From the NCBI GenBank assembly GCA_014218215.1, contig CP043652.1, forward strand, positions 4,402,001 to 4,466,000: DNA of 64,000 nt, in the 5' to 3' direction. Each line of letters opens with the position of its first letter. Within the stretch, counting starts at the first letter, position 1. Of the stretch, positions 8,720 through 19,501 are shown piece after piece. Below the pieces are notes generated by a model. The model saw nothing but the letters and a program-made list of their open reading frames with translations, was not told the DNA's origin and ran no database searches. This stretch comes from Geodermatophilaceae bacterium NBWT11. GTDB lineage: Bacteria; Actinomycetota; Actinomycetes; Mycobacteriales; Geodermatophilaceae. Both the position numbers and the translations under genes were made by a program.

Positions 8720-9499
8720 TCAGAGCGCCGGCCCGCCGTCCACGGTCGTGGTCGACCCGTCAGACCCGACGACCAGGGCGGATCGTCCCCGCCGGGTGGC
8801 CAGCCAGGAGGCTGCATCGGTGCCCAGGGCGTAGGCGGCGGTGGCGTCGATGTCCGCGGCGGTCAGCGAGTCGCCCCAGACGGTCACCTGGGCGGTACCG
8901 GTGGGCGCGCGCCCGGTGCGGGCGTCGACCAGGTGAGCGGCGCGGTGGGCGGTGCCGGAGGTGGCGACGGCGCCGGTGGCCACCGGCAGGACAGCCAGCA
9001 CCCGTCCGGGGTCGGCCGGGTGCTCGATGCCGATCCGCCACGGCGGGCCGGCGGGGTCCAGGGTCCGGCAGGTCAGGTCGCCGCCGGCGGACAGGCAGAA
9101 GTCGGTCTCGGGCAGCTGGGCCAGCCAGGCCGCGGCGCGCTCGGTGGCCCAGCCCTTGACCACCCCGCTCGGGTCCAGCCGGCGCGTCCCGTCGGTACCG
9201 GGCAGCCAGGCGCTGAACGCCCCGTCGGAGTCGCGCTCGGCGGCCGCGGCCAGGGCGAGGACCTCGGCGACCTCGGGTGGGCAGTCCTCGACGGTGATCT
9301 CGCCGCGCCCGAGTCGGCTGACCGCGGAGTCGGCCCGGTAGGTGCTGAAGACCCGGTCGACGTCGCGCAGCTCGGTCATGACCTCGGCCCAGGCGTCCCG
9401 GGCGGCCCGATCGGTGGTGTGCCGGCCCCGCAGCGCCAGGCTGATCGGCATGCCCATGACGTGCTCGACGTACCGGACGGGCGCCACCACCGCGGTCAC
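8720..9499 (-). CDS. apbE: FAD:protein FMN transferase (ApbE family)
   Basis: This 259-residue enzyme uses FAD to attach FMN covalently to a Thr/Ser of target proteins, typically in an S-G-A-T context. Family features seen are MGMPISLALRG at the start, VFSTYRADSAVSRLGRG, the flavin-binding SGVVKGWATERAAAWL block, SAGGDLTCRT, and GTAHRAAHLVDARTGRAPTG with the metal-binding A-D region after it (SLTAADIDATAAYALG). The GTG start overlaps the stop of the FMN-binding protein gene (GTGA), which carries exactly the acceptor motif this enzyme modifies. No signal peptide is evident, unlike many Gram-negative ApbE proteins. Confidence 0.9.
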   Translation of the reverse strand: MTAVVAPVRYVEHVMGMPISLALRGRHTTDRAARDAWAEVMTELRDVDRVFSTYRADSAVSRLGRGEITVEDCPPEVAEVLALAAAAERDSDGAFSAWLPGTDGTRRLDPSGVVKGWATERAAAWLAQLPETDFCLSAGGDLTCRTLDPAGPPWRIGIEHPADPGRVLAVLPVATGAVATSGTAHRAAHLVDARTGRAPTGTAQVTVWGDSLTAADIDATAAYALGTDAASWLATRRGRSALVVGSDGSTTTVDGGPAL

Positions 9500-10014
9500 A
9501 GGCCGGCCTGGTCCAGTGCGCTCTGCAGGGACTCCAGGTAGCCGTCGCTGGTGTAGGTGGCGCCGCTGACCATGTCGATGTCGGCGCTCTGCGCGTCCAG
9601 GGTCTCCTGCACCAGCACCGGCAGGGCCCGGCCGTTGATCTGGCGGTCCTTGCCGTCGTTGCTGGGGTACTCGACGACGCTGACGTCGGTGATGGTGCCG
9701 CCGGAGACGGTCAGCTGGACCTGGACCGGGCCGTAGCGGGTGTCGGCGGCGGTTCCGGTCACGGTGGTCGTGGTGGCCGACGTCGTGTCCGGCGCGGGGG
9801 TCGGGGAGGCGGCCGAGGAGGGGGCGGCCGTCGAGGGCGCGGCCGGCGAGGCCGACGTGGAGGGGGTGGCGGCGAGCGAGCCGGTGACGGGGGTGACGGT
9901 GGAGGACTCCGCGGTCGCGGTCGCGGTCGCCTGGGAGGAGGTGGAGGTGTGGTACCCGAAGAGCAGCACCAGCACGGTCAGGGTGCTCATGCACCAGAGC
10001 ACGATCTTCTTCAC
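9496..10014 (-). CDS. Membrane-anchored FMN-binding domain protein (covalent flavin carrier)
   Basis: A 172-residue protein with one N-terminal transmembrane helix (residues 3-21), a long Ala/Thr/Ser/Pro linker suited to crossing the cell wall, and a C-terminal FMN_bind domain. The domain shows TRYGPVQVQLTVSGGTITDV and ends with DMVSGATYTSDGYLES; Thr153 in SGAT is the predicted FMN attachment site. ApbE is the next gene. The GTG at 10014 starts right before the helix and lies 4 bases after the flavocytochrome stop, so it is preferred over the upstream ATG. It should relay electrons on the outer face from the flavocytochrome encoded upstream. Confidence 0.88.
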   Translation of the reverse strand: MKKIVLWCMSTLTVLVLLFGYHTSTSSQATATATAESSTVTPVTGSLAATPSTSASPAAPSTAAPSSAASPTPAPDTTSATTTTVTGTAADTRYGPVQVQLTVSGGTITDVSVVEYPSNDGKDRQINGRALPVLVQETLDAQSADIDMVSGATYTSDGYLESLQSALDQAGL

Positions 10015-10018
10015 AGGG

Positions 10019-11428
10019 TCACCAACCGAAGCTCTCGACGTGGATGCGGTCGGCCGGGACGCCGGCCGCCGTGGCGGTGCGGACGACGTCATCGGCCCAG
10101 GGACCGGGACCGCAGACGTAGACGTCGCGGTCGGCGATGTCGGGCACCCACCAGGTCAGCGCGGTCACGTCGTCGGCATCGCCGACCCCGTGGCCGAGCC
10201 AGGACCCCTGGGCCCGGCGGTGGCCCGGCAGCCAGAACAGCTGCAGGCCGCGGTCGTCGACGAGCTGCTCGAACTCGCGCTGGAACAGCGGGCGGTCCCG
10301 GTAGCGCTGCAGGACGGCGACCTCCCCGGGGGCGTAGGACATCCCCTCGGCCAGGGCCCGCAGCGGGGTGATCCCCACCCCGGCCCCTATGAGGGCGACC
10401 CGGCGGCGGGTGCGGGCCCGCTCGGACAGCCGGCCGTAGGGGCCCTCGACCAGCACCCGGGTGCCCGGCCGCAGGTGGCGCAGGGCGGCGCTGCCGTCGC
10501 CGACCTCGGCGACCGTGATCCGCAGGGTGTGGCCATCGGGCGCGGCGGACAGCGAGTAGGGGTGCGCGCGGGTCCATCCCGCACCGGCCAGGAACCGGAA
10601 GGAGAAGAACTGGCCGGCCTCGGCGACCACCCTGCGTCCCCGGCGGGCGGCCATCGTCACCGACACCACGCCGTCGCCCTCGGCCACGACCGAGGTGACC
10701 CGCAGCGCCGAGCGGGTGCTGCGGACCAGCGGCACGGCCACCCGCCAGACGAGCACCGCCCCGGCCGCCGCGGCCCAGGACGTCCACCAGAAGACGGTGC
10801 GGGCCGGGGAGGCGAGGAAGTCCTGCCCGGTCCACAGCTGGTGCGGCAGGGCCAGCCCGACGCCCAGGTAGGCGTAGAGGTGCAGCAGGTGCCAGGACTC
10901 GTAGCGCAGGCGCCGCCGGGCCGCCCGCACGCTGGTCACCACCACCATGACGAGGCACAGAGTGCCTGCGGCCGCCAGCAGCATGCCCGGGTAGGTCACG
11001 GTGAGGTCCCACAGCTCACCCGGTGCTGCGCTGAGCTCACCGGCGGCGTACCCCCAGGTGATCAGCCCGATGTGGGCGACCATCAGGGTGAAGGAGCTGA
11101 ACCCCACCAGCCGGTGCAGCGCAGCGAGCCGGTCCTGCCCGAACGCGCGCTCGAGCGCCGGTACCCGGGCCATCAGCAGCAGCTGCACGAGCAGCAGGTC
11201 CGAGGCCAGCAGACCGGTCAGCCGGCCGGTGGAGGTCAGTCCGGCGGCCCAGGAGCCCAGCGCCTGGAACCCGCCGCCGGTGGCCCACCAGTAGCTGACC
11301 AGCAGCAGACCGGACCACAGCACGGCCAGCGAGCTCAGGCGGATCGCGGCGTCGCGGCGGGCCCGGCGCCCCGGGTGGGTGTCCGGTGCGGTGGGGACCT
11401 CGAGCGGGCGGGCCGCAACGGCGGTCAC
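10019..11428 (-). CDS. Ferric-reductase-like transmembrane flavocytochrome
   Basis: A 469-residue integral membrane protein. The N-terminal part (about 30-230) has six hydrophobic helices with paired His residues for two haems (LHRLVGFSSF / VAHIGL and SWHLLHLY / LPHQLW). The C-terminal part is an FNR-type domain: HPYSLSAAPDG binds FAD, GAGVGITPLRAL binds NAD(P)H, and the terminus DVYVCGPGPWADDV...VESFGW is typical. It would carry electrons from cytosolic NAD(P)H across the membrane to the FMN protein or to extracellular Fe(III). It is about one-half identical in layout to the paralog at 15355-16716. The GTG start at 11428 is the first sensible one before the first helix. Confidence 0.85.
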   Translation of the reverse strand: MTAVAARPLEVPTAPDTHPGRRARRDAAIRLSSLAVLWSGLLLVSYWWATGGGFQALGSWAAGLTSTGRLTGLLASDLLLVQLLLMARVPALERAFGQDRLAALHRLVGFSSFTLMVAHIGLITWGYAAGELSAAPGELWDLTVTYPGMLLAAAGTLCLVMVVVTSVRAARRRLRYESWHLLHLYAYLGVGLALPHQLWTGQDFLASPARTVFWWTSWAAAAGAVLVWRVAVPLVRSTRSALRVTSVVAEGDGVVSVTMAARRGRRVVAEAGQFFSFRFLAGAGWTRAHPYSLSAAPDGHTLRITVAEVGDGSAALRHLRPGTRVLVEGPYGRLSERARTRRRVALIGAGVGITPLRALAEGMSYAPGEVAVLQRYRDRPLFQREFEQLVDDRGLQLFWLPGHRRAQGSWLGHGVGDADDVTALTWWVPDIADRDVYVCGPGPWADDVVRTATAAGVPADRIHVESFGW

Positions 11429-11510
11429 CGGGCGCCCCCACCGGTGCGGGGACGAGCGCCTGACTGGTGCACTGGCTGCTCCTGCTGGTCCGTGGTGGGG
11501 GGTGAGTCGG

Positions 11511-12002
11511 TCAGGTCGTCGGGGACGCCGTGGCCGGCGCGCTGGTGGCGGGGGACGACGTGGTCGGGCTCGTGGTCGACGGGCTCGTCGTGGACGAGCT
11601 GGTGCTGCCATCCCCGTCCTGGTCCCCGTCCTGGTCGCGGTCACCGCGGACGCCGTGGTCTCCGTCGCCGGGACCACCGCGGTCTCCCCCGCGGTCGTCG
11701 ACCTGGGCGGTGCCTCGCCCGTCGCCGCCGCCGGCCTCGTGACCCACGGCGAAGCCGGCGCCGCCCCCGACGAACAGCAGCGCGACCGCGGCCAGCGCGG
11801 CGAGCAGGCCGCGGCCGCGGCGGGTGGTGGGTCGCCGGGTCAACGCGCGGCGCAGGCGGTCACGGCGCCCGGCGGCGGGGCCGGGGGCGTCGGCCGGCGA
11901 GGCGGCCCACTGGCCCTCGCCAGCGGCAAGCTGGGCGTCGACGGGCACGGTGGCGCCGACGGGCGGCTGCTGGGCGGGGATGTCGTCGCGGTCGGTGGGC
12001 AC
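11511..12002 (-). CDS. Membrane-anchored protein with Asp/Gly/Arg-rich segment and Ser/Thr tail
   Basis: A 163-residue protein of unknown family. A charged N-terminus is followed by a basic stretch, one transmembrane helix (about 71-90, LLAALAAVALLFVGGGAGFA), a low-complexity Gly/Asp/Arg region with several His, and a C-terminal tail almost entirely Ser/Thr/Pro/Ala. The topology suggests an extracellular, possibly metal-binding or glycosylated, tail. The GTG at 12002 follows an AGGAG site six bases upstream and was chosen over an in-frame ATG at 12068. It is the first gene of the flavocytochrome/FMN/ApbE operon and lies directly downstream of inverted-repeat site A. Confidence 0.6.
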   Translation of the reverse strand: MPTDRDDIPAQQPPVGATVPVDAQLAAGEGQWAASPADAPGPAAGRRDRLRRALTRRPTTRRGRGLLAALAAVALLFVGGGAGFAVGHEAGGGDGRGTAQVDDRGGDRGGPGDGDHGVRGDRDQDGDQDGDGSTSSSTTSPSTTSPTTSSPATSAPATASPTT

Positions 12003-12076
12003 GCAGGTCTCCTGGGATCCGGGGGGCGGGTACGGCTCAAGCCTGGCCGCCCGCCCGCCTCCCGGCATCGTCCCGG

Positions 12077-12108
12077 CGCAGGCTCCTCACCTGCTGCGGC
12101 TGCAGTAG
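12077..12108 (-). promoter_or_regulatory. Regulon site A: inverted repeat plus promoter block
   Basis: Read on the minus strand this is CTACTGC-N4-GCAGCAG, then seven bases, then GCCTGCG. The dyad has 7-base arms around a 4-base spacer. The same arrangement occurs at 14872-14904 and 16865-16898, each oriented toward the adjacent operon. Here it precedes the 11511-12002 gene by about 75 bases. The GCCTRC block sits where a -10 element would be expected if the dyad covers -35. Confidence 0.6.
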
Positions 12109-12131
12109 CCGACGCCGCGCGCAGGCGGTGA

Positions 12132-12149
12132 CTCCTGCGCCAGCAGGCC
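12132..12149 (-). promoter_or_regulatory. Degenerate second copy of the inverted repeat (site A')
   Basis: CTCCTGC-N4-GCAGGCC (plus-strand reading) keeps the 7-4-7 geometry and matches the core CTGC/GCAG, 41 bases upstream of site A. The B/C pair shows a similar 39-base offset, which supports tandem binding on one helical face; alone it would not be called. Confidence 0.3.
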
Positions 12150-12185
12150 CCTCCCGCCGGCCTGGTCCGCTGCGGGAACCGGGCT

Positions 12186-12875
12186 CTACGGGGCGCCGGT
12201 GTCCCCGACGCGGACCAGGCCGCTCTGGTAGGCCAGCACGACCAGCTGGGCGCGGTCCCGGACGTCGAGCTTGCTCATCGCCCGGTTCAGGTGGGTCTTG
12301 ACCGTGAGCGGGGACAGGAACTGCTGGGCGGCGATCTCGTCGTTGCTGAGGCCGAGCGCGGCCTGGGCGACCATCTCCCGCTCGCGGTCCGTCAGCGCCG
12401 CCAGCGACGCCGGCGCCGCACCGGGGCGGGGTGCGGCGGTGTCGGGGGCGGCGAGGAACCGGGCGATGAGGCTGCGGGTGGCCCGCGGGGACAGCAGTGC
12501 GTCCCCGCCGGCGACCACCCGGACGGCCTCGAGCAGCTCCTCGGGTTCCACGCTCTTGCCCAGGAACCCGCTGGCGCCGGCGCGCAGGGCGTCCAGCACG
12601 ATCTCGTCGGCCTCGAAGGTGGTCAACACGACCACGCGGACGTCGACCAGGTCGGGGTCGGCGGTGATCTGACGGGTCGCCGACAGACCGTCCGTGCCGG
12701 GCATGCGGACGTCCATGAGCACGACGTCGGGCCGCAAGGAGCGGGCGAGGTCGACCGCGGTCGCGCCGTCGCCGGCCTCCCCGACCACCACGAGGTCCTC
12801 GGCGCTGCCGATGAGCGCGGCGAACCCGGACCGGATGAGCACCTGGTCGTCAGCCAGCAGCACGCGGATGGTCAC
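12186..12875 (-). CDS. NarL/LuxR-type response regulator
   Basis: A 229-residue two-domain regulator. The receiver domain contains the acidic pocket (LLADDQ), the phospho-acceptor Asp near residue 54 in DVVLMDVRMPGTDG, the Thr of VVVLTTFEADE and the Lys in FLGKSVEP. The C-terminal LuxR helix-turn-helix (LTDREREMVAQAALG, then VKTHLNRAMSKLDV) binds DNA. It overlaps the histidine kinase gene by four bases. Proteins of this class commonly bind short dyads, and it is the natural candidate for the CTACYGC-N4-GCAGYAG sites nearby (inference). Confidence 0.92.
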   Translation of the reverse strand: MTIRVLLADDQVLIRSGFAALIGSAEDLVVVGEAGDGATAVDLARSLRPDVVLMDVRMPGTDGLSATRQITADPDLVDVRVVVLTTFEADEIVLDALRAGASGFLGKSVEPEELLEAVRVVAGGDALLSPRATRSLIARFLAAPDTAAPRPGAAPASLAALTDREREMVAQAALGLSNDEIAAQQFLSPLTVKTHLNRAMSKLDVRDRAQLVVLAYQSGLVRVGDTGAP

Positions 12876-14134
12876 ACCGTGCCCCGCGGGACCGTGGCTC
12901 GCACCCGCCAGCCACCAGCGCCGTCAGGCCCGGCGGCCAGCCCACCGCCGACGGCGTCGACCCGCTCCCGCATGCCGATGAGGCCGTGCCCGCCGCCGAC
13001 CGGAGCCGGGCGGGGGGAGAAGGTGTTCACGACGTCGATGGTGACCTCCCTCGCCCCGTGGTCGACGAGCAGGGTGGCCTGCCCGTCGCCGTACTTCACC
13101 GCGTTGGTCAAGGCCTCCTGCACGACGCGGTAGGCGGTGAGGTCGGCGACCGGGAGCAGGTCGGCCGACTCACCAGTGACCCGCCAGTCCAGGGCGAGCC
13201 CGGCCGAGCGCATGTCGTCGACCAGGGCCGGGAGCCTGGCCAGTCCGGGGGCGGGGGCGGCCGGTCCGTCGCCGCCGTCCGTGCGCAGCAGTCCGACGAC
13301 GGAGGTCAGCTCGGTCAGCACGCTCTTGCTCGCCTCTCGCACCAGGGTCAAGGCGTGCTCGGCCTGCTGCGGGTCGCGGTGCATCAGGTGCTTGGCGACG
13401 CCGGCCTGCACGTTCACCACCGCGATGTGGTGGGCGACGACGTCGTGCAGCTCGCGGGCGATCCGCAGCCGCTCGTCGGTGACCCGGCGCTGCGCCTCCT
13501 CCTCCCGGGTGCTCTCGGCCTGCGCGGCCCGGGCCCGCGCCGCCGCCAATGCCGACCGCTGCCCGCGCAGCGCCACGCCGGCGGCCGCGGCCGCCCCACC
13601 CAGGGCCAGCACGGTCAGGGCCGGGGAGTCCCCGCGCTCGTCCAGGAACACCCCCTGCGCGGCGGCCAGGGCCAGGACGTAACCGAACCCGGCGACGACG
13701 ACGGTGAGCACGGTGGTCCGCAGGGTCGCCAACCACCCCAGGGTGAACAGTGCGACCAGCAGCGGGGCCGACACCAGGGGGTCGGCGCCACCCATCAGCA
13801 CCGCACCCACCACCGCTCCGGCCGAAACAACGGCCACCGGGACCGGGTAGGCACGGCGGGCCAGCAGCACCGCCGAGGCGAGCACGAGCAGCACCACCGC
13901 ACCGGCCGAGAGGGAGCTCCCGGCTCCCCCCACGGCGTCCAGGCCGTCCAGCCCGGTCAGGCCTCCCCCGCCGCGGCCGCGGTCCCGGCCGCCGGTCAAC
14001 CCGCCCAGGGCCACGGCCAGCGCCAGCGCGGCCAGCACGGCGTCGGCGACGCGGGGGTGCTGGGCCGCCCACCGGTTCGCCCGGGTCAGCAGGGGCCACA
14101 TGGTGGACCGTTGTACCGCAGCAGCCGAGGTCAC
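12872..14134 (-). CDS. NarL-family sensor histidine kinase (HisKA_3)
   Basis: A 420-residue kinase with four to five N-terminal transmembrane helices and no recognisable extracytoplasmic sensor domain, suggesting it senses something in or at the membrane. The H-box is in RIARELHDVVAHHIAVVNVQ (phospho-His near residue 239), and the ATPase part shows YRVVQEALTNAVKYG and GGGHGLIGMRERVDAVGG. Two starts are possible: GTG 14134, which overlaps the DedA stop as GTGA and is preferred, or ATG 14101. Its partner regulator follows immediately. Confidence 0.88.
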   Translation of the reverse strand: MTSAAAVQRSTMWPLLTRANRWAAQHPRVADAVLAALALAVALGGLTGGRDRGRGGGGLTGLDGLDAVGGAGSSLSAGAVVLLVLASAVLLARRAYPVPVAVVSAGAVVGAVLMGGADPLVSAPLLVALFTLGWLATLRTTVLTVVVAGFGYVLALAAAQGVFLDERGDSPALTVLALGGAAAAAGVALRGQRSALAAARARAAQAESTREEEAQRRVTDERLRIARELHDVVAHHIAVVNVQAGVAKHLMHRDPQQAEHALTLVREASKSVLTELTSVVGLLRTDGGDGPAAPAPGLARLPALVDDMRSAGLALDWRVTGESADLLPVADLTAYRVVQEALTNAVKYGDGQATLLVDHGAREVTIDVVNTFSPRPAPVGGGHGLIGMRERVDAVGGGLAAGPDGAGGWRVRATVPRGTV

Positions 14135-14745
14135 CCGAACACTGCGCGGACCCGGGACTGCCGGGCCAGCACGGCGACCAGCCCGAACGCTGCGGCCAGC
14201 AGGACCGCCGGGCGCGCGTCGGCGACGGCAGCCAACACGGTCTCCCCGTACCTGCCGAGGGTGGCTCCGGCGCCGATCCAGGCCGCGTTCCACAGAGCCG
14301 AACCCACCGCGGTCAGCGCCAGGAACCGCGCCGTCGGCATGCCCAACGAACCGGCGGGCAGGTTGACCAGCACCCGCACGCCGGGTACCAGCCGGCCGAG
14401 CAGGACCACCCAGGCTCCCCGGCGGTCGAACCAGCTCTCCAGGTGGTCCCAGCGGCGCGCATCCAGGCCGATGAGCCGGGACACCTGCTGGACCCGCGTG
14501 CGGCCTCCTGCCCGGCCGACCAGGAAGACGACCCAGGCCCCCAGGGTCGACCCGAGCGTCGCGGCGAGGACAGCACCCGGGTAGGACAGCTGCCCCGCTG
14601 CCACCTGGCTGCCGACCAGGGGCAGCACGACCTCCGAGGGGACGGGAAGCACGGCTTCCACGGCCATGACGAGGGCCAGCCCGGCATCCCCGGCAGCGTC
14701 CACGAGTCCGGTCGCCGCGTCGGCGACGGTGCTCAGCGCGCTCAT
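14131..14745 (-). CDS. DedA/SNARE-associated family membrane protein
   Basis: A 204-residue membrane protein with five hydrophobic stretches. DedA features include the acidic Glu in VEAVLPVPSEVVLPLVG, GAWVVFLVGRAGGR, FDRRGAWVVLLGRLVPGVR with the conserved Gly-Arg, and LPAGSLGMP. Family members act as proton-linked lipid-carrier or undecaprenyl-phosphate flippases; which applies here is not visible. It is the first gene of an operon with the two-component system, and its upstream region contains regulon sites B and C. Confidence 0.85.
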   Translation of the reverse strand: MSALSTVADAATGLVDAAGDAGLALVMAVEAVLPVPSEVVLPLVGSQVAAGQLSYPGAVLAATLGSTLGAWVVFLVGRAGGRTRVQQVSRLIGLDARRWDHLESWFDRRGAWVVLLGRLVPGVRVLVNLPAGSLGMPTARFLALTAVGSALWNAAWIGAGATLGRYGETVLAAVADARPAVLLAAAFGLVAVLARQSRVRAVFG

Positions 14746-15107: not shown

Positions 15108-15358
15108 CCGCCCACCACGCGGTGGCCCGCCCGCTGACCTGGGTCACCGGGATGCTGCTGACCACTGCCACAGCCCTGGGGCTGTGGTTCGGCGTCGGCG
15201 CACCTGACGTCTCCCCCGTCGCCGCTCCCGCCGTGCAGGCCGCCCAAGCCGCCCAGGCCGACGCCGGCCAGCAGGCCACCGGCGGGGACGCCCCGCGCGG
15301 CGCCGGACCGCAGGGCGGCGGAGCCGGCCAGGGTGGGCGAGGGGGTGGTCGTCGATGA
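15104..15358 (+). CDS. Small 84-residue single-pass protein with Gly/Gln/Ala-rich tail
   Basis: One transmembrane segment (about residues 10-30, TWVTGMLLTTATALGLWFG) is followed by an Ala/Gln-rich and then Gly/Arg-rich low-complexity tail ending in GGRGGGRR. It overlaps both neighbours by four bases (ATGA on each side), so it is embedded in the operon of the second flavocytochrome, in the same relative place as the FMN carrier in the sister operon, but has no FMN_bind domain. Function unknown; a structural or assembly partner is possible. Confidence 0.55.
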   Translation: MTAHHAVARPLTWVTGMLLTTATALGLWFGVGAPDVSPVAAPAVQAAQAAQADAGQQATGGDAPRGAGPQGGGAGQGGRGGGRR

Positions 15359-16716
15359 CGACCGACCTGGTGCCGGGGGCGGGGACGACACGCCGGCCGC
15401 CGAGCGCATCGCCGCGCCGGCGGACGGTGGTCGACCGCGCCACCGCGCTGACCGTCGCGGGCACCGGCGCGCTCGCCGTCGCCACCTGGCCCGTCGCTCT
15501 GGCCACGCTCGGCCCCGAGGTGTCCGGGCTGGGCGTCGTCGCCCACGTCAGCGGGATGCTCGCCGGGTTCGGGGTCCTGGTCCTCCTGCTGCTGATGGCC
15601 CGCACCCCCGCCCTGGAACTGGGCGTCGGCGCCGACGTGCTGGCCCGATGGCACGGACTCCTCGGTCGCGCGGTCATCGTCCTGGTCGGCGTGCACGGCA
15701 TCGCTGCCACAGCGGCCTGGGCTGAGGCCACGGACACCGGACCACTCACCGCTGTGGCCACGGTCCTGGCCATGCCGTGGCTCCCCGCCGCCACGATCGG
15801 CACCCTCCTGATGGTCGTCGCAGGGATCGCGTCGGCCCGGGCGGCGCGACGACGCATCCGGCACGAGACCTGGCACGCCCTACACCTGCTGATGTACGTG
15901 GCCGTCGCGCTGTCGTTCGGGCACATGCTCGCCGGCCCCGACCTGGCCGGCTACCCGGTGCTCCAGGTGGGCTGGGCATTGGCCTACACGCACGTGTTCG
16001 CCCTCGTGCTCCGCTACCGGGTCATCGCCCCGATCCAGCAGGCCACCCGGCACCGGCTGCGGGTGGCCGAGGTGCGGCCCGAAGGCCCCGACGTGGTCAG
16101 CATCCACGTCACCGGTCGGCACCTGCACGAGCTGGCGGCGGAATCCGGGCAGTTCTTCCGCTGGCGGTTCCTCACCCGCGACCACTGGCGCAACGCACAC
16201 CCGTTCTCGTTGTCCGCACCACCCACGTCCACCTCCCTGCGGCTCACGGTCAAGGCGCTCGGCGACGGCACCCACCAACTGCAGCAGCTGCCGGTCGGCA
16301 CCCGCATCGCGGCAGAGGGCCCCTACGGTGCTGTCACCGCCGCCCGCCGGACGCACCGCAACGTGCTGCTGATCGCCGGCGGTGTCGGCATCACCCCGAT
16401 GCGGGCCCTGTTCGAGTCGCTGCCCGTCGCCCCGGGTGAGGACCTGCTGCTGCTGTATCGGGCCCGCGACATGGCCGGGGTGCTCTTCGCCGACGAGCTC
16501 CAGGCCATCGCCGCCCGCCGAGGGGTGCGGCTGGGCTACGTCCTCACCGGCGACCCGTGGCTCAGCGATCCCCGCGCGCTGCTGCACGCCGTGCCCGACC
16601 TCGCCCACCGTGACGTGTACATGTGCGGCTCGCTGAGCTTCACCGCTGCCGTCCGTACCTGCCTGCGGGACGCCGGACTGCCGCCCGGGCAGCTGCACGA
16701 GGAACGATTCGCCTGA
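15355..16716 (+). CDS. Second ferric-reductase-like transmembrane flavocytochrome
   Basis: A 453-residue paralog of the protein at 10019-11428. About six helices carry His pairs (RWHGLLGRAV / GVHGIA and ETWHALHLLMYV / FGHML) for two haems. The FNR-type part contains HPFSLSAPPTS (FAD), GGVGITPMRALFE (NAD(P)H) and DVYMCGSLSFTAAV...EERFA at the end. It should move electrons from NAD(P)H to the cell exterior. It ends its own short operon; the next gene begins 257 bases later behind site D. Confidence 0.85.
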   Translation: MTTDLVPGAGTTRRPPSASPRRRTVVDRATALTVAGTGALAVATWPVALATLGPEVSGLGVVAHVSGMLAGFGVLVLLLLMARTPALELGVGADVLARWHGLLGRAVIVLVGVHGIAATAAWAEATDTGPLTAVATVLAMPWLPAATIGTLLMVVAGIASARAARRRIRHETWHALHLLMYVAVALSFGHMLAGPDLAGYPVLQVGWALAYTHVFALVLRYRVIAPIQQATRHRLRVAEVRPEGPDVVSIHVTGRHLHELAAESGQFFRWRFLTRDHWRNAHPFSLSAPPTSTSLRLTVKALGDGTHQLQQLPVGTRIAAEGPYGAVTAARRTHRNVLLIAGGVGITPMRALFESLPVAPGEDLLLLYRARDMAGVLFADELQAIAARRGVRLGYVLTGDPWLSDPRALLHAVPDLAHRDVYMCGSLSFTAAVRTCLRDAGLPPGQLHEERFA

Positions 16717-16973: not shown

Positions 16974-18146
16974 ATGCGCAAGTACACCCTGATGGCCGGC
17001 GGCGCCCTCGTCGCGACAGCGATGACCGTCACCGCCTGCTCCAGTGACTCGTCGACCTCCACGAGCACCGACAGTTCCAGTGCATCCGGCAACCCCGGGG
17101 GGCCTGGTGGCGGCGGTCCCGGCGGGGGCGGCGGTGGGGTCGGCCAGACCTTCACCGCCGTCGACCTGGACTCCGACGGGGTCAGCGCCGGCGGCGCCAA
17201 CACCGCTGCAGTCGTCCCCGTCGTGCAGGCGTTCCTGGCCACCCTGGACGCCGACGACGCCGACACCGTCAGCTACGACTTCGACGACACCCAGGCCCGC
17301 ACCACCTGGTCCAACTACCCGCAGACCGCCGTTCCCCGGGAGGGGATCAAGCTCAGCGACCTGAGCGAGGACCAGCAGCAGGCAGCTCTGGCCATCCTGA
17401 CGACCGCGCTGAGCACCGACGGCGCCACCCAGGACGAGGACATCCGGACCGCCGACGACTACCTGATGAGCCTGGGCGGACAGGGCGCCGACGGATTCGG
17501 GTCCCTGGTGGACTACTCCATCGCCGTCTACGGCACCCCGTCGACCACCGCGCCCTTCACCGTCCAGTTCGGCGGGCACCACCTGGCCCGCAACCTGACC
17601 TACAACGGCGACGCCATCAGCCAGACCCCGCAGTTCGTGGGCACCGAACCGACCACGTTCACCGTCGACGGCACGGCCTACGAGCCGCTGCAGGCCGAGT
17701 CGACCGCCCTGTTCGCCCTCTTCGACGGCCTCACCGACGACCAGCGCACCGGCGCCGAGATCACCTCGGGGACCTTCGACGACCTCGTCATGGGCCCCGG
17801 CGTCGACAACGGGCAGTTCCCCGAGACCGAGGGCCTCGCGGTCTCCGAGCTCGACGAGTCCCAGCAGCAGCTGGTCATCGACGCCCTGCAGGCCTACGTC
17901 GGAGACCTGAGCACCGAGGCGGCGACCGCGACCATGGCGCAGTACACCGCCGAGCTGGACCAGACGACCATCGGGTGGTCGAACAACACCGGCCCGACCG
18001 ACGAGAACAGCTACCTGCGCATCGACGGTCCCAGCGTGTGGATCGAGTTCGTCAACACCCGCAGCCAGTCCACCCCCGACATCCACTTCCACTCCGTCTA
18101 CCGCGACAAGAACAACGACTACGGCAGCTCGAACGTCAGCGGATGA
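16974..18146 (+). CDS. DUF3500-like secreted lipoprotein
   Basis: A 390-residue protein with a lipoprotein signal ending in lipobox VTAC near residue 20, then a Ser/Thr and Gly/Pro linker (about 25-55) and one large domain. The domain has VPVVQAFLATLDADD, TTWSNYPQTAVPREGI, the His-rich FGGHHLARNLTYNG and, near the C-terminus, DIHFHSVYRDKNNDYG. These match my recollection of the DUF3500 family, whose biochemical role is not established. The clustered His residues could bind a metal (inference). The next gene, a HupE-like protein, overlaps by four bases. Confidence 0.75.
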   Translation: MRKYTLMAGGALVATAMTVTACSSDSSTSTSTDSSSASGNPGGPGGGGPGGGGGGVGQTFTAVDLDSDGVSAGGANTAAVVPVVQAFLATLDADDADTVSYDFDDTQARTTWSNYPQTAVPREGIKLSDLSEDQQQAALAILTTALSTDGATQDEDIRTADDYLMSLGGQGADGFGSLVDYSIAVYGTPSTTAPFTVQFGGHHLARNLTYNGDAISQTPQFVGTEPTTFTVDGTAYEPLQAESTALFALFDGLTDDQRTGAEITSGTFDDLVMGPGVDNGQFPETEGLAVSELDESQQQLVIDALQAYVGDLSTEAATATMAQYTAELDQTTIGWSNNTGPTDENSYLRIDGPSVWIEFVNTRSQSTPDIHFHSVYRDKNNDYGSSNVSG

Positions 18147-19501
18147 CGACGACGCGATCAGTCCCCCGGGCCGTCGTCCTCGCCGCCCTGGTCGTGCTGC
18201 TCGCGCTGTGGGGGCTGGGCGGGGCCGGCTCGGCGTCCGCCCACCCTCTGAGCACGACGGCGGTCCTGCTCGACGTCGGTGACACGACCGTCACCGGCCA
18301 GCTCCAGCTGCCCGTGGACCGCCTGGCCATCGCGCTGGAGGACCCGGACCTGACCCCGGCCGCAGCCGTGGCGCCGGCCGAGCTGGCGACGCTGCGCGAC
18401 TACGTCGCCGACCACACCGCCGCCAGGGGAGCCGACGGCACGGCCTGGTCGGTGGACGTCACCGGCGGCCGGATCGCGGCCGTCGACGGCGTGGACCACC
18501 TGGTCCTCGACCTCACCCTCACTCCCCCGGTGGGCGAGACCGCCCCGACCGGGCTCTTCACGTTCAGCTACGACGCCATCGTCGAGCACCTGCTGTCCCA
18601 CCAGATCCTGGTCTCCGCCCGCCCCGCCGGTGCGACGGACTACAGCACGGTGGGCCTGATCAACTGGCAGGACCACGACCTGGCCGTCGACGGCTTCGCC
18701 CCGGCCGATCCGGCCCCGGCCGGTGTGGCGGCCGGCTTCGCCACCGCCGTCCACCTCGGGATCGAGCACATCTCCGGGGGTGCCGACCACCTGCTGTTCC
18801 TGATCACCCTGCTTCTCCCCGCGCCGCTGATGGCCGCGCGCGGCAGGTGGGTCCGGCGACCGGGACTCCGGCGCAGCAGCTGGCGCGTCCTGCACGTGGT
18901 GACCGCCTTCGCGGTGGGTCACTCGATCACCCTCGCCCTGGCCGCCCTCGGCTACGTGCACGTGGACAGCCGGGTCGTGGAGTCCCTGATCGCCGTCAGC
19001 ATCCTGGCCTCCGCCGTGCACGCGATGAAGCCGCTGGTCCCCGGTGGGGAAGCAGCCATCGCGGCCGGGTTCGGCCTCGTGCACGGGCTGGCCTTCGCCG
19101 CGGTCATCGACGACCTGGGCCTGGACCGCGGGTCCCTCGTGGTCCAGCTGCTGGGCTTCAACCTGGGCATCGAGCTCACCCAGCTGATCGTCGTCGCCCT
19201 CGTGATGCCCTCGCTGCTGCTGCTCAGCCGGACCCGTCTCTACCCCGCCGTCCGGCTGACCGGCGCAGCCATCTCGGCGGCGCTGGCTCTGGGCTGGCTG
19301 GCCGAGCGCACCGGATTGCTCTCCTCAAACGTCCTTGACGGCATGGGCGAGCTGCCCGTCGCGCGGGGCCTCGCCATCGCCGGCGGGCTGGCCGCCCTGG
19401 CGGTCGTTGCCTTCACGGTGCGCCGGTGGCGGGTCACCGACGCCCCCGTGGCGACCGCCCGGCGGACCGGTTCGACGAGGACTCTCGTGCGCACCCCCTG
19501 A
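18143..19501 (+). CDS. HupE/UreJ-2 family membrane protein
   Basis: This 452-residue protein has a signal peptide (cut near residue 32, after SASA), an extracytoplasmic region of about 160 residues, and a C-terminal membrane part of six to seven helices. The family hallmark HLGIEHISGGADHLLFL is present, with VGHSITLALAALG and GLVHGLAFAAV. HupE/UreJ relatives are connected with nickel or other metal acquisition, though HupE_UreJ_2 members are mostly uncharacterised. Co-translation with the DUF3500-like lipoprotein suggests they form one complex. The ATG overlaps the preceding stop. Confidence 0.8.
   Translation: MTTTRSVPRAVVLAALVVLLALWGLGGAGSASAHPLSTTAVLLDVGDTTVTGQLQLPVDRLAIALEDPDLTPAAAVAPAELATLRDYVADHTAARGADGTAWSVDVTGGRIAAVDGVDHLVLDLTLTPPVGETAPTGLFTFSYDAIVEHLLSHQILVSARPAGATDYSTVGLINWQDHDLAVDGFAPADPAPAGVAAGFATAVHLGIEHISGGADHLLFLITLLLPAPLMAARGRWVRRPGLRRSSWRVLHVVTAFAVGHSITLALAALGYVHVDSRVVESLIAVSILASAVHAMKPLVPGGEAAIAAGFGLVHGLAFAAVIDDLGLDRGSLVVQLLGFNLGIELTQLIVVALVMPSLLLLSRTRLYPAVRLTGAAISAALALGWLAERTGLLSSNVLDGMGELPVARGLAIAGGLAALAVVAFTVRRWRVTDAPVATARRTGSTRTLVRTP

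Follow-up and report, generated by a model that had tools for sequence, protein, structure and literature searches.

A DUF3500 lipoprotein gene paired with the gene for an anglerase-type HupE/UreJ-2 permease: a candidate envelope module for transition-metal handling

Described systems and the gene pair of the window

HupE and UreJ are accessory proteins of hydrogenase and urease, respectively, in which a motif known as HX5DH plays a functional role. The present analysis concerns two adjacent genes of Geodermatophilaceae bacterium NBWT11, one for a lipoprotein of the DUF3500 family and one for a permease of the HupE/UreJ-2 group, which are located in a stretch of 64,000 nucleotides (the window; positions 4402001-4466000 of the single-contig, 4.59 Mb genome). 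The closest described relatives of the permease are the anglerases Ang-1 and Ang-2, in which an exported β-sandwich with an N-terminal histidine is fused to a HupE/UreJ-2 membrane domain. According to the paper describing them, these domains bind Cu2+ with a Kd of 73.6 nM (Ang-1) and 62.3 nM (Ang-2), values published for RbAng-1a and MmAng-2a only, and metal capture and uptake were proposed as their function (PMC12537917). Exported proteins encoded next to HupE/UreJ genes are also on record, namely, nickel-binding DUF4198 proteins (PMC12537917) and CutF-like proteins with histidine motifs (PMC9973294); like the lipoprotein of the window, they are metal-binding or histidine-motif proteins adjoining a permease gene, but they belong to other families and, as far as named there, do not have the DUF3500 fold. 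For DUF3500 itself, the closest counterpart is ApmL/Amc20 (structure 9x86), deposited under the title 'dehydratase ApmL in Amipurimycin biosynthesis'; the literature search found no paper describing 9x86, nor were the catalytic residues of ApmL found in print. AN10530 of Aspergillus nidulans, likened here by family name and not by sequence, is assigned to the same Pfam family, and a dioxygenase function is only proposed for it (PMC12388069).

The genes for the lipoprotein (P0001, 16974..18146, + strand; 390 aa) and the permease (P0002, 18143..19501, + strand; 452 aa) are joined by a stop/start overlap of four bases, ATGA (18143..18146, + strand), as already pointed out in the original prediction, which had been drawn from the letters of the window. 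The proteins matched PF12006 (258.1 bits versus a cut-off of 27.2; residues 75-384) and PF13795 (150.7 bits versus 24.5; residues 203-363), respectively, and neither matched a model in NCBIfam. A lipobox-like VTAC (residues 19-22; 17028..17039, + strand), of which Cys22 is predicted to be acylated, follows a short hydrophobic leader and agrees with the lipoprotein export signal proposed originally; like the signal peptides of both proteins, it was read by eye from the translation. The closest named relative for the pair was found in Klenkia soli DSM 45843, whose lipoprotein is 89% identical and has the same N-terminus around the lipobox.

The structural model of the permease (pLDDT 87.0) places a predicted extracytoplasmic domain ahead of the membrane part, in line with the original prediction. 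The best match of the model was the copper-bound Ang-1 domain 9gce (Z 12.2, rmsd 2.9, 135 residues aligned), on residues 1-158 of which permease residues 34-187 (18242..18703, + strand) were aligned as an anglerase-like β-sandwich, with residue 34 coming first, on chain residue 1. Residue 34 is a histidine (18242..18244, + strand) and the predicted N-terminus of the mature protein, following ...SASA, with the cleavage site being read by eye. Of the 54 aligned rows, the 37 that extend to this position all have His34; the gap in the other 17 mostly reflects truncated start calls, as starts were taken from a simple gene caller that left some N-termini incomplete. The EHI..G.DH motif recognized earlier, EHISGGADH at residues 208-216, contains HX5DH (residues 209-216; 18767..18790, + strand), which is situated in the HupE domain within its first membrane helix. 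H209, D215, H216, H260, and H314 were kept in 54 of 54 aligned permeases, all of which matched PF13795 and only 6 of which additionally matched PF04955. On the basis of the modeled fold and the predicted N-terminal histidine, both as in the anglerases, the permease was assigned to the anglerase-type HupE/UreJ-2 proteins. The original prediction saw no firm biochemical role for either family, which is only half true now, because 9x86 was deposited as a dehydratase and the outer domain of the permease resembles an anglerase.

The permease shares HX5DH and a gene position beside a possible metalloprotein with the HupE nickel permeases and UreJ (PF04955), but differs from them in belonging to PF13795 and in its added exported domain. 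The gene neighbors of Ang-2 are metallophosphatases and DUF916, and the paper restricts Ang-2 to Actinomycetota (PMC12537917); the neighbor here is DUF3500, and the DUF3500-linked group stems mostly from Bacteroidota and Actinomycetota. DUF3500 is not named in the text of that paper. In a FastTree phylogeny that did not contain the MmAng-2a sequence, the permease of the window was placed on a branch apart from L046, L050, and L051 (L designates individual loci), and the permeases adjoining DUF916 and metallophosphatase genes (L050 and L051) formed, together with L046, a branch separate from the DUF3500-linked ones.

Occurrence and co-inheritance of the pair

Contigs were scanned with an alignment of four paired Klenkia DUF3500 proteins, i.e., with DUF3500 sequence only, and the best 80 of 256 relatives were kept, which yielded 79 loci, one of them (L053) from a genome that had also contributed to the query. 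Pairing was then called by searching these loci with a HupE profile, followed by gene calling and clustering. In 60 of the 79 loci, a HupE/UreJ-2 gene adjoined DUF3500 on the same strand, and the order was DUF3500 directly followed by HupE in 57 of them, reversed in 2, and interrupted by one gene in 1; a spacing of −4 was also called in 6 of the 60. Judged by record titles, 35 paired loci belonged to Bacteroidota, 18 to Actinomycetota, 2 to Ignavibacteriota, and 1 each to five further labels, two of them doubtful (L106, 'Cyanobacteriota', titled Rhodococcus; and L122, 'Pseudomonadota'). Pairing of DUF3500 with HupE was not found in print in open-licence papers, and the available passages on the DUF3500 family hold no connection to HupE.

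Genomic co-occurrence had been named in the original prediction as a way of checking it. Family-wide co-occurrence, which was tried first, was weak in relatives, phylum, and Bacteroidota samples and was given up as a candidate; among 41 relatives, for instance, 4 of 22 DUF3500 matches adjoined HupE, and in the Bacteroidota sample, the list of HupE matches within open frames of at least 300 aa has 7 entries, 2 of which adjoin DUF3500. Many Bacteroidota DUF3500 proteins start signal-peptide-like, yet have no HupE next to them. The reason became apparent in a FastTree phylogeny of 132 DUF3500 rows (long branches flagged), in which all 72 paired rows fell into a single clade of 96 rows (support 83; 99 for 92 rows once three distant rows were omitted). 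None of the 15 cytosolic-type rows falls into this clade, and of the 22 unpaired Bacteroidota rows, 21 likewise lie outside it. The strong link to HupE belongs to one DUF3500 subfamily, which bears out the co-occurrence check of the original prediction; at the level of the whole family, the link is weak. Among the clade members obtained by the contig scan, 23 rows were without a permease, which indicates that the permease was lost or moved repeatedly.

The distances in the two trees were correlated over the 60 DUF3500-HupE pairs with r = 0.82, a value inflated by common descent of the host species, whereas the highest value among 500 permutations was 0.26. K. soli helps against this inflation because it contains a second, different DUF3500-HupE pair, which in both trees is separated from the first and sits close to sequences of other actinobacteria. 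That the two genes are neighbors by history only, and do not act jointly, would be consistent with the weak family-wide linkage; still, the same gene order and short spacing in several phyla, the congruent trees, and the different placement of the two pairs found in a single Klenkia genome make this explanation highly improbable.

Fold and conserved residues of the lipoprotein

The AlphaFold model of the lipoprotein (pLDDT 84.5) matched 9x86 with Z 20.9 and rmsd 3.1 over 252 of 255 residues (27% identity), and the sequences matched in phmmer with an E-value of 2.6e-23. Beyond 9x86, Foldseek and VIA-align returned no solved fold for DUF3500 clearly above background, a result that excludes nothing. 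Besides the fold, the lipoprotein has the GHH, E, HxH, and R residues in common with 9x86, whose solved chain, in contrast, is without a lipoprotein leader in the matched part and belongs to an antibiotic pathway, amipurimycin biosynthesis. By alignment, the first half of this constellation is GGHH (residues 200-203; 17571..17582, + strand) and the second half comprises E358, H371-x-H373 (HFH, residues 371-373), and R377 (18045..18104, + strand). Among 96 exported rows, H202 was found in 93 and H203 in 92 (with three gaps each), E358 in 94, H371 and H373 in 93 each, and R377 in 95; in the cytosolic rows, all six were present in 8 of 8. The complete constellation was kept in 90 of the 96 exported rows, and five of the six exceptions were fragments or split genes, so the histidine-rich stretches that had first drawn attention are indeed conserved. 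The only full-length exported row missing H203, H371, and H373 (replaced by N, Q, and Q) was L091 5881-7083, a single case, whose locus also has no HupE. Three other positions differ between the exported and the cytosolic sets (R122, 93/96 versus 2/8; D351, 86/96 versus 0/8; W356, 88/96 versus 0/8), which points to a specialized role of the exported DUF3500 proteins. A type IX secretion tail on 5 of 60 aligned exported DUF3500 proteins is consistent with a location outside the cell.

The genome of the window contains a second DUF3500 gene (G000:C1:3292277-3293263; L004 8224-9339), which has no obvious leader and resides in an aromatic-catabolism-like cluster together with FAD monooxygenase, flavin-reductase-like, cupin-like, and FAH-like genes (names from sequence reading). 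Similar DUF3500 clusters with an FAH-type gene are present in many Geodermatophilaceae.

Because the lipoprotein has an enzyme fold and its conserved histidines also occur in cytosolic relatives, a role of the DUF3500 lipoprotein as a simple metal-binding delivery protein, as originally envisaged, is not established. It might instead be an exported metalloenzyme, dehydratase- or oxygenase-like, acting on a small external organic molecule, with the permease supplying, balancing, or stripping its metal; the permease would then be an accessory of the enzyme, in the way that HupE and UreJ serve hydrogenase and urease. Besides the match to a dehydratase and the fully kept constellation, the cytosolic DUF3500 relatives next to FAD monooxygenase and FAH-type genes speak for this, as does the dioxygenation of 1,2,3,5-tetrahydroxybenzene proposed for the fungal DUF3500 protein (PMC12388069). 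Further points in its favor are an exported intradiol-type dioxygenase encoded between the two genes in one locus (L069) and YceI genes close to DUF3500 in 4 of 79 loci. On the other hand, exported DUF3500 proteins of other clades do without the permease, which the fold, thus, does not require; unrelated lipoproteins lacking the DUF3500 fold accompany HupE genes elsewhere; and the available literature passages on DUF3500 proteins give no metal dependence. We regard an enzyme served by an accessory permease as possible, but clearly the less probable reading.

The dioxygenase gene of L069 (7218-8222, + strand; Ignavibacteria) has a leader-like start and matched PF00775 with an E-value of 1.1e-11. 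The search for a third conserved family, made with an iterated profile from this protein, was dropped; by way of a C-terminal sorting tail common to both, the profile had come to pick up DUF3500 itself. Nothing but the direct match to Pfam was retained. The YceI-like genes adjoining DUF3500 are L066 7014-7739, L067 7125-7943, L092 8453-9079, and L115 8445-9020; in L066 and L067, they occupy the place of the absent HupE.

Exported partners, genomic context, and function of the pair

Whether HupE/UreJ-2 permeases have exported partners other than DUF3500 can be judged from the 41 relatives, where eight HupE_UreJ_2 genes were found in seven genomes. Four of them adjoin a DUF3500 lipoprotein, and the other four have as a divergent neighbor the gene for an unrelated lipoprotein (~200 residues) whose histidines are conserved (LHRGH...H...H). 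This lipoprotein was encoded in full length (E < 1e-70) in exactly those four genomes; six other genomes gave weak partial matches only. The family, characterized by LHRGH and two further histidines, comprises L028 7237-7827 (−), L029 7368-7949 (−), L030 9485-10102 (+), L031 6921-7514 (−), and L122 7067-7612 (+); the last one, with 35% identity, directly follows DUF3500. The two copies scanned (P0003 and that of L122) had no Pfam match. Together with the published CutF-like and DUF4198 neighbors, this exchange suggests that an exported partner is a common companion of such permeases, which is mainly why we read the pair as a capture module rather than as an enzyme plus accessory permease.

We, thus, consider the pair to be one envelope module for transition-metal handling, most likely for capture and uptake, and give this reading about an even chance of being correct. 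An external partner combined with a membrane carrier, the part of the original prediction that stands, is the best reading because the two genes co-occur in the subfamily and because exported domains of the permease group bind copper in vitro. The N-terminal histidine of the permease, on a mobile β-sandwich outside the membrane, would catch the metal, and the anglerase domain would pass it to a path of histidines and aspartate in the membrane domain (HX5DH, H260, and H314). The DUF3500 lipoprotein, with its enzyme fold and intact GHH/E/HxH/R, would be the dedicated outside partner; at the cell surface, it most likely either keeps hold of the metal or acts on the organic ligand that carries it, which would let the anglerase take the metal. 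Copper as the metal is suggested only by analogy to the measured anglerases. TonB-dependent receptors in a few paired Bacteroidota loci are counted in favor of a capture module. In two Chryseobacterium genomes (L075 6001-12035 and L089 3794-9829), a TonB receptor is encoded between two DUF3500 genes, which are followed by HupE.

Several observations weigh against a module for metal capture. The permease was not adjacent in 19 of the 79 loci. In a phylum sample of 396 genomes, DUF3500 was present in 26 and HupE in 9, adjacent only in the window's own genome, and in 247 Bacteroidota genomes, DUF3500 was present in 20 and HupE/UreJ-2 in 70, adjacent at 2 places. The neighbor tallies of the paired loci, which took 100 of 111 upstream and 94 of 106 downstream proteins, contained no metal-specific gene, and an Rfam search of the window and of 11 of the 79 loci, all paired, gave no riboswitch or other match at the gathering threshold. 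Finally, the constellation common to cytosolic relatives in catabolic gene clusters may be purely catalytic.

In 27 of the 60 paired loci, two-component genes were no more than two genes away from DUF3500 and HupE, and the upstream tally of 100 proteins was led by Response_reg (20), LytTR (18), and His_kinase (11). The pair could serve metal export, detoxification, or sensing in the envelope, with adjacent two-component systems reading its state, the more so as the sequence does not give the direction of transport. However, TonB receptors near some pairs fit import, and uptake is also what the authors of the anglerase paper argue for (PMC12537917); we consider export or sensing very improbable.

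Upstream of the pair, on the same strand, the window encodes the ferric-reductase-like flavocytochrome FRE2 (15355..16716, + strand; PF01794, PF08022, and PF00175), whose gene ends 257 bases before that of the lipoprotein, and a protein of 84 residues. Further upstream lies a block of genes for ApbE, an FMN_bind protein, a second flavocytochrome (FRE1), a small protein, a response regulator, a histidine kinase, and DedA (8720..14745, − strand). Given this neighborhood, the flavocytochromes might reduce Fe3+ or Cu2+ and the pair import the reduced ion, as the original prediction had considered when it called them co-regulated. The FRE1/FMN_bind/ApbE block is kept in K. soli, where it adjoins the second DUF3500-HupE pair, which is followed by a kinase and a regulator; genes like these also lie around the pair of Actinoplanes sp. 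M2I2 (L059) and that of a Microbacteriaceae metagenome-assembled genome (L125). Set against this, the orthologous pair of K. soli is ~12 kb away from FRE2, with other genes, including ABC-transporter-like ones, between them, and tblastn with FRE1 and FRE2 over the 79 loci found clear relatives in two (L059 and L125) and weak ones in two more (L077 and L088). A ferric-reductase gene is, thus, not a conserved neighbor of the pair, co-regulation was not confirmed, and reductive uptake is improbable; coupling to flavocytochromes is possible locally but not part of the conserved unit. The block at 8720-14745, partly kept in Actinoplanes sp. M2I2, looks like an exported-flavin electron-transfer unit. 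A sigma-70/terminator scan gave no match, which says little for a high-GC actinobacterium, and neither did a viral-contig scan.

Within the preferred reading of a capture module, one specific chemistry can be imagined. Outside the cell, the metal might be complexed by an organic ligand (a polyphenol, a sugar-acid, or a secreted metallophore), and the DUF3500 lipoprotein might be the surface enzyme that opens or dehydrates this ligand, with the freed metal going to the N-terminal histidine of the anglerase domain. This proposal is rather unlikely in its specific form; if true, a fishing permease fed by enzymatic release of metal outside the cell would represent a mode of metal acquisition that we have not seen described. 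Independently of this chemistry, the pairing gives the orphan DUF3500 family a concrete partner and makes its chemistry testable, and a dedicated outside component would be added to a class of permeases whose metal-fishing domain has been known only since 2025. The exchange of partners in Geodermatophilaceae suggests a general rule, according to which each anglerase permease would have one exported lipoprotein.

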